Positions 6,887-8,568 of a stretch of 64,000 nucleotides of DNA are shown here, one piece after another; the first letter of the stretch is position 1; the number at the start of each line of letters is the position of its first letter. The translations under genes and the position numbers were made by a program. The stretch is taken from the NCBI RefSeq assembly GCF_000298215.1, contig NZ_BAHD01000034.1, forward strand, positions 1 through 64,000, written 5' to 3'. This DNA comes from Kineosphaera limosa NBRC 100340. GTDB taxonomy: Bacteria; Actinomycetota; Actinomycetes; Actinomycetales; Dermatophilaceae. The notes beneath the pieces are model-generated. The model was not told where the DNA came from. It searched no databases and was given only the letters and a program-made list of their open reading frames with translations.

Positions 6887-8038
6887 TCAGGTGCTGTAGG
6901 CGGAGTTCTCGTGGACGTAGTCGTGGGTCAGGTCGTTGGTCCACACCGTCGCCGCCTCCGACCCGGCATGCAGCTCGACGAGCACGTGCACGGTGCGGCC
7001 GGACAGGTCGACGCCGGAGCGGTCGTCCCCGACTCCCATCGCGCGGCAGACCTGCACGCCGTTGATCGAGACGTCCAGGGTGCGCGGGTCGAACGCGGCG
7101 TCGGTCGTGCCGACGGCGGCCAGGATTCGGCCCCAGTTGGGGTCGCCACCGAAGACCGCGCACTTGAAGAGGTTGTTGCGGGCCACGGCGCGGCCCACGC
7201 TCAGGGCATCGTCCTCGGTGGCAGCCCCGACGACCTCGATCGTGATGTCGTGGTGCGAGCCCTCGGCGTCGGCCAGCAGCTGCATCGCCAGATCGCGGCA
7301 GGCGCGGGTCAGTGCGTCGGTGAACTGCGCCTCGTCGACCTGCGCCGAGGCAGCCCCGGAGGACAGCAGCGCGACGGTGTCGTTGGTCGACATGCAGCCG
7401 TCGGAGTCGAGGCGGTCGAAGGAGAGGCGGCAGGCCTCGCGCAGGGCCCGCTCCAACTCCGGCGCCGTCAGGGCCGCGTCGGTCGTCAGCACGACGAGCA
7501 TCGTGGCCAGCGAGGGAGCGAGCATGCCCGCGCCCTTGGCCATCCCGCCGATGCACCACCCGTCGCCCTCGACGAGCACCTCTTTGGCGACGGTGTCGGT
7601 CGTCATGATGGCGGTCGCCGCGTCGGGCCCGCCCGTGTCGGACAGTGCCGCGACGGCGGCGTCGACACCGCCCAGGAGGACCGGCATGTCGAGGCGTTCG
7701 CCGATGAGACCCGTGGAGCAGACGAGCACGTCACCGGAGGAGACGCCCAAGGCACCCGCGACGTGTTCGGCCGTGGCGTGGGTGTCTGCGAACCCCTCCG
7801 GCCCGGTGCAGGCGTTCGCGCCGCCGGAGTTCAGGATCACCGCATCGAGACGCCCATCGGCAACCGCCACCCGACTCCAGGTGACCGGCGCTGCCTCCAC
7901 TCGGTTGGCGGTGAAGACCGCGGCCGCGGCGTGACTCGGGCCGTCGTTGACGACGAGCGCGACGTCGGGGCGGCCGCTGGCCTTGAGCCCGGCGGTGACG
8001 CCGGCCGCACGGAAACCTGTGGGAGTGGTGACGCTCAC
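6887..8038 (-). CDS. argJ: Bifunctional ornithine acetyltransferase / N-acetylglutamate synthase
   Basis: Recycles the acetyl group from acetylornithine to glutamate and may also use acetyl-CoA. The 383-residue precursor contains the autoproteolysis site in [15 protein letters not shown], where cleavage between Ala178 and Thr179 yields the alpha and beta chains and exposes the catalytic threonine; the upstream STG motif (oxyanion hole) is also present. The GTG start at 8038 has AGGAG 6 bases upstream and overlaps the stop of the ACT-domain gene (GTGA). ArgJ makes the pathway cyclic, so no argE is required and none is present. Confidence 0.95.
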
Positions 8039-8568
8039 GAGGGGCTCCTGTTCGCCTTCTTGGGATGTGTGGCGGTGGTGCCGACACCGGCCGACGCGGT
8101 CTGGGCGATCGTGTGCCCCGCGGCCCGCCACACATCCGTGACCGCGCCCACCTGCTCGAGCGGGACGAGGAACCAGTCGGTGTCGAACGTCGACATCGTC
8201 ACGACGCTCACGCCCACTCCGGTCAACGGGTCGAGCAGGTCACGCAGCACCCCGACGAGGGTGAAGTCCAGCGGCCCTTGCACCTCGAACGCCAGAAACG
8301 GGCCCGCCTGATCGACGCCGATCGGCACCGCGTCCGCCGCGGCCACGACCGAGGTCTCGTGGGCGTTCCAGGTGACCGACGCCAGCGGCCCGCCGCTGCG
8401 CGCCCACGTCGGAATCGGGCTACCGGGCTCCAGCCGAGCGATCTTGACGGGCTCGGTGTGCAGCGCCAGCGTCCAGACCGGCTGATCCGTCTCAGGCTGC
8501 GTCGACTCGGCTTGGACCGCCCCCGACGGGCTCGACCCGGGTTCGGTGGGTTCGGCTTCGGTGATCAC
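8035..8568 (-). CDS. ACT domain protein, CASTOR-like, in the arginine operon
   Basis: A 177-residue protein with a hydrophilic N-terminus (about 40 residues, rich in Glu, Pro, Ser, Thr) followed by tandem ACT-like folds (about 45-170). It matches the prokaryotic ACT family related to the eukaryotic arginine sensor CASTOR: a first half containing [10 protein letters not shown] and a second half with [17 protein letters not shown]. Its GTG overlaps the argC stop (GTGA) and its stop overlaps the argJ start (GTGA), so it is translated as part of the arginine operon; GGAG lies 7 bases before the start. A regulatory, amino-acid-sensing role is inference. No catalytic residues are visible. Confidence 0.8.

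Follow-up and report, generated by a model that had tools for sequence, protein, structure and literature searches.

The small ACT protein IlvH is the regulatory subunit of acetohydroxyacid synthase, and its interaction with the enzyme is established. CASTOR1 is a central arginine sensor in animals. The guanidino group of its bound arginine is contacted by the side chain of Asp304 and by the main-chain carbonyls of Gly274, Thr300, Phe301 and Phe303, and the amino group is held by Ser111 and Val112; the D304A mutation abolishes arginine binding and S111A weakens it (PMC5187391). When the CASTOR1 structure was described, its authors were aware of no bacterial ACT protein whose dimer is arranged as in CASTOR1 (PMC5187391). 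In actinomycetes, ACT-GNAT acetyltransferases sense amino acids, and cysteine, arginine and asparagine are listed as their ligands in a review (PMC8556138, PMC6434083). A precedent for an arginine-binding ACT domain in this group is MaKat, an ACT-GNAT protein (PMC8556138; cited in PMC6434083). In the open-access literature that we searched, no description of an ACT gene between argC and argJ was found, nor any report on the function or ligand of Atu0741, an Agrobacterium ACT protein of known structure (PDB 1zhv). Here, we analysed a stretch of 64,000 nucleotides from Kineosphaera limosa NBRC 100340 (contig NZ_BAHD01000034.1, positions 1 to 64,000; hereafter the window), in which a gene for a CASTOR-type ACT protein lies between argC and argJ. 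The gene product probably serves arginine synthesis as a built-in sensor or regulator.

The gene order in the window is argC-ACT-argJ-argB-argD-argR-argH, with pheT and pheS upstream of the cluster and tyrS and a gene for DNA-3-methyladenine glycosylase beyond the arg genes (NCBIfam). The features are as follows.

8565..9608, minus strand: argC, N-acetyl-gamma-glutamyl-phosphate reductase (NCBIfam); 4-nt overlap with the ACT gene
8035..8568, minus strand: tandem ACT protein gene, CASTOR-type; GTG start, 177 aa
Residues 33-157 of the ACT protein: ACT pair, with low-confidence tails on its N- and C-terminal sides in the predicted model
8173..8196, minus strand: codons for residues 125-132 of the ACT protein (MSTFDTDW), including Ser126, Thr127, Asp131 (equivalent to CASTOR1 Asp304) and the clade-specific Trp132
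6887..8038, minus strand: argJ, bifunctional ornithine acetyltransferase (NCBIfam); 4-nt overlap with the ACT gene
5916..6836, minus strand: argB, acetylglutamate kinase (NCBIfam); start site not refined
4666..5919, minus strand: argD, acetylornithine transaminase (NCBIfam)
4056..4664, minus strand: argR, arginine repressor (NCBIfam); C-terminal ligand domain intact
2546..4105, minus strand: argH, argininosuccinate lyase (NCBIfam)

A preliminary description of this DNA had placed a CASTOR-like ACT protein at 8035-8568, with its start and stop overlapping argC and argJ. Both points were confirmed. The minus-strand frame encodes a protein that matches Pfam ACT_7 (PF13840; residues 91-144, 39.5 bits, E 5.1e-10) and A9CJY8-like_N (PF21631; residues 43-82, 27.9 bits, E 1.7e-06), each above the curated gathering cut-off of 27 bits, while the NCBIfam search returned no model for it. 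The ACT-type segment flagged in that description corresponds to residues 126-135. The overlaps are of 4 nt each: GTGA at 8568-8565 is common to the argC stop and the ACT start, and GTGA at 8038-8035 is common to the ACT stop and the argJ start (GTG at 8038). The overlap of the ACT frame with both neighbours supports a putative arrangement as in translational coupling. An open reading frame on the plus strand (8065-8808) was rejected as an antisense artefact on the basis of codon constraint on the minus strand.

Other features of the neighbourhood were recorded. A short-chain dehydrogenase gene (window 9690-10469) lies between pheT and argC, and the same place is occupied in this way in many Dermatophilaceae relatives. 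No argF is present between argD and argR (window 4056-5919); the sole clear ornithine carbamoyltransferase of the window genome directly adjoins arginine deiminase (arcA) (G000:C150:16974-19217, L206). Six sampled near relatives that carry the ACT gene likewise have no argF at this place (G001, G004, G014, G042, G046 and G055), and arcA was found in all six. Across the related genomes, the ACT gene showed no association with the arginine deiminase pathway, arcA being found in 10 of the 23 genomes that carry the gene and in 35 of the 74 that lack it.

An AlphaFold2 model of the ACT protein was built on a 45-sequence alignment, and structural neighbours were ranked by Foldseek and VIA-align. The mean pLDDT was 88.9, with residues 31-160 mostly above 90. 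The top structural match was Atu0741 (1zhv; Z 19.6, 134 residues, 2.1 A), followed by VC0802 (Z 13.3). Arginine-bound CASTOR1 came next, its C-terminal half (residues 173-323) superposing with Z 11.5 over 120 residues at 2.5 A; the N-terminal half of CASTOR1 gave Z 9.5 and aspartokinase ACT pairs gave Z 8-10. By sequence, the best PDB matches were also Atu0741 (E 1.8e-14) and CASTOR1 (E 3e-06), so that the CASTOR-like fold put forward earlier is borne out both by sequence and by superposition on the CASTOR1 halves. CASTOR-family proteins carry four ACT domains per chain, and the 177 aa of the window protein hold a single tandem pair. The model thus predicts one tandem ACT pair, that is, half a CASTOR1, and either CASTOR1 half matches it by fold.

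In the alignment, CASTOR1 Asp304 corresponds to Asp131, Thr300 to Thr127 and Ser111 to Ser121. Across a set of 45 diverse members, Gly106, Ser126, Thr127 and Asp131 do not vary. Asp131 is also present in 28 of the 28 non-arg relatives compared; this conservation across the wider family is therefore no proof of arginine specificity. Position 121 varies within the arg-operon clade (Ser in 33, Thr in 6, Ala in 5 and Pro in 3 of 47 members). Trp132 marks the clade, with 47/47 of its members versus 0/28 others; Trp147 occurs in 44/47 versus 6/28. Glu277 and Gly274 of CASTOR1, which are not conserved in the ACT protein, make only main-chain contacts to arginine (PMC5187391). Judged from these residues, the site is compatible with arginine or ornithine and is no proof of either.

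Among 97 related genomes, an ACT match was found in 24. In 23 of these, the window genome included, the gene adjoins argJ, and argC lies on the other side wherever the contig is complete; the remaining match (G079), close to the end of its contig, comes from a distant relative that falls outside the arg clade in the tree. A scan of a genome collection retained 80 loci from named records (Knoellia, Phycicoccus, Janibacter, Pedococcus, Nocardioides, Marmoricola, Microlunatus, Dermacoccus, Piscicoccus, Austwickia, Agilicoccus and MAGs), every one of them in an arg operon. The order argC-ACT-argJ was observed in 105/105 loci with complete flanks, which represent about 90 distinct genomes, some loci being present in both sets. 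The offset between argC and the ACT gene is -4 nt in 95 of these loci, and that between the ACT gene and argJ is -4 nt in 70 and between -4 and +2 in 88; starts were taken as the in-frame start nearest the upstream stop, a choice that favours overlap in these counts. No fusion of the ACT protein to ArgC, ArgJ or another Arg enzyme was found in the 105 loci. A profile search of 394 actinomycete genomes gave a match in 68; all high scorers with a listed argJ position adjoin argJ, and several low scorers have argJ on another contig. In three loci (L035, L077 and L079), the arg cluster has the ACT gene and the other arg genes but gave no match to ArgR. The conserved ACT gene belongs facultatively to the arginine operon of several actinomycete families.

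In a tree of 76 proteins, a single branch (SH-aLRT 97) separates the 47 arg-operon members from all others; the tree was made by a quick method from a short alignment and has some long branches among the non-arg proteins. Other CASTOR-like ACT proteins, from other actinomycete families and not in arg operons, have stable neighbourhoods of their own: lnt-fxsA-rbpA, typA-ychF or thyX (L130-L137, L133, L138, L142, L146, L147, L141 and L149). Plasmid relatives lie beside histidine uptake genes (Burkholderia) or glutamate-semialdehyde dehydrogenase (Peptoclostridium). On the Burkholderia ambifaria plasmid NZ_CP152372.1 (L203), the related gene (3956-4339) follows genes for histidine ammonia-lyase and a histidine ABC transporter on the same strand, a neighbourhood that hints at other amino-acid links of this protein family. 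A survey of whether the gene always lies in arg operons had been suggested in the preliminary description; this held for the arg-operon clade, which is always between argC and argJ. Scattered locations had been named there as evidence against a sensor; the clade shows no such scatter, although more distant relatives are scattered.

In 39 relatives without an ACT match, argC is joined directly to argJ, many with the same 4-nt overlap (one further ACT-less stretch held only part of ArgJ). The arg genes persist there, and the ACT gene is therefore dispensable for the pathway. Mapped on a tree of ArgC plus ArgJ, its presence required at least 12 changes by parsimony and 6 by well-supported branches; the gene is patchy, with at least six gains or losses. 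Since the gene always has the same position, it is simplest to assume that an ancestral operon contained it and that it was lost, gain with transfer being the alternative. Presence and absence at one junction with 6 to 12 changes fits a regulator and not a pathway step. Furthermore, the median dN/dS of the ACT gene was 0.28 (140 related pairs, not independent of one another), and the gene is under purifying selection. With this selection and a position common to 105 loci, 95 of which have the 4-nt overlap to argC, the gene and its place are more than a chance finding.

The established controls of arginine synthesis appear, from sequence, to be intact in the window. From end to end, with the N-terminal helix and the C-lobe region, ArgB matches arginine-regulated acetylglutamate kinases, and its arginine sensitivity is presumed from this kinase family. 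ArgR matches the mycobacterial repressor, ligand domain included. Since ArgB and ArgR look normal, the ACT protein would be an added layer of control. The idea that it replaces a lost feedback was rejected for the window, where ArgB is of the arginine-regulated type and the ArgR ligand domain is kept. When PheS and PheT were removed from the tree-distance correlations, the values with the ACT protein were 0.36 for ArgC, 0.28 for ArgD, 0.26 for ArgR, 0.17 for ArgB and 0.14 for ArgJ; with the other Arg proteins removed, they were 0.28 for ArgC, 0.20 for ArgR and 0.10 for ArgD, whereas those for ArgJ and ArgB were close to zero or just below it. Co-variation weakly favours ArgC as the partner, and linkage could cause this signal.

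We propose that the ACT protein would form a homodimer that imitates the CASTOR1 monomer or the aspartokinase ACT dimer, as suggested by those structures. Arginine (or ornithine) would be bound between the subunits, where the side chain of Asp131 and main-chain atoms in the loop of residues 126-130 would hold its distal guanidino or amino group. The target would be an enzyme early in the pathway that is translated from the same message, most probably ArgC or the ArgC/ArgJ/ArgB group, and the ligand-bound and free forms would have different effects on it. Like IlvH with acetohydroxyacid synthase, the protein would be a regulatory subunit that acts in trans, added to ArgB feedback inhibition and ArgR repression and not replacing them. 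We regard regulation of arginine synthesis as the best explanation and give about an even chance that the gene product is a stand-alone regulatory ACT protein of the arginine pathway working by this dimer mechanism. Several observations speak against it: Asp131 is also invariant at unrelated loci, position 121 varies, CASTOR1 Glu277 and Gly274 are not kept, no fusion to an Arg enzyme was found in the 105 loci, the co-variation signal is weak, and ArgB and ArgR appear able to sense arginine on their own. A further proposal is put forward more tentatively. In it, a dedicated arginine or ornithine sensor of the CASTOR fold binds ArgC, ArgJ or ArgB in actinomycetes and in this way would control the acetylated steps of arginine synthesis, as a third layer beside ArgB feedback and ArgR.

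The fixed place between argC and argJ could also reflect inheritance from a single insertion, and this counts against a regulator. An ACT protein of the CASTOR-like kind whose role has nothing to do with arginine might have been inserted there once and kept as a passive passenger through the stability of the operon. Such a history would agree with one clade of one origin, with relatives elsewhere that adjoin unrelated housekeeping genes and with repeated loss without trace. However, the tight 4-nt overlap is kept on both sides across several families, Trp132 is invariant and specific to the arg clade, and the ACT gene is under purifying selection, and we regard a passive passenger as unlikely.

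Two further explanations keep a sensor and change its partner or its ligand, and each seems to us improbable, somewhat more so than the passenger. If the ACT protein sensed arginine or an intermediate and modulated ArgR, and not an enzyme, control would be at the level of transcription; argR lies in the same gene cluster and has the second-highest residual correlation with the ACT protein (after removal of the other Arg proteins), but that signal is weak, the ACT gene overlaps argC and argJ and not argR, and ArgR has its own intact arginine-binding domain. Alternatively, the ACT protein might bind glutamate, an acetylated intermediate or some amino acid that is neither arginine nor ornithine, and in response throttle entry into the arginine pathway. 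Arginine is not specified by the side chains of the pocket, Asn or Cys is the ligand of some known ACT domains in actinomycetes (PMC6434083), and distant relatives adjoin histidine uptake or glutamate-semialdehyde genes; against this, the closest ligand-bound homologue, CASTOR1, binds arginine with the equivalent Asp, and the operon context is arginine only.

If an arginine or ornithine sensor of the early pathway is indeed encoded here, bacteria would have a counterpart of the human arginine sensor that shares both its fold and its ligand, and regulation of ArgC, ArgJ or ArgB by it would be a new control point for arginine synthesis. A half-CASTOR fixed in a bacterial arginine operon is also a small protein suited to direct tests of ligand, dimer site and target.

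Among the described systems, Atu0741 is the most similar to the window protein in full-length fold and in sequence and has the same Asp in its STFDGD motif, but it lies outside the arg-operon clade in the tree and has His, not Trp, after this Asp. Human CASTOR1, the cytosolic arginine sensor of mTORC1, shares the equivalents of Thr300 and Asp304, whereas its Glu277 and Gly274 are not kept; the window protein is half as long, so that two chains would be needed, and GATOR2, the partner of CASTOR1, is absent from prokaryotes (PMC5187391). The regulatory ACT pair of aspartokinase has the same tandem arrangement, although the window protein has no kinase fusion and about 10% identity to it, and the window genome encodes a separate aspartokinase. 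In the ACT-GNAT acetyltransferases MaKat and AAPatA, an actinomycete ACT domain senses amino acids, as proposed here, with arginine as the reported ligand of MaKat; unlike the window protein, their ACT domain is fused to an acetyltransferase. IlvH, too, is a small ACT protein whose gene belongs to the operon of the controlled pathway, and the window gene lies in the operon of its putative target enzyme in the same way (105 loci, between argC and argJ). IlvH belongs to a different ACT family and pathway, and for the window protein contact with a partner enzyme is only proposed.
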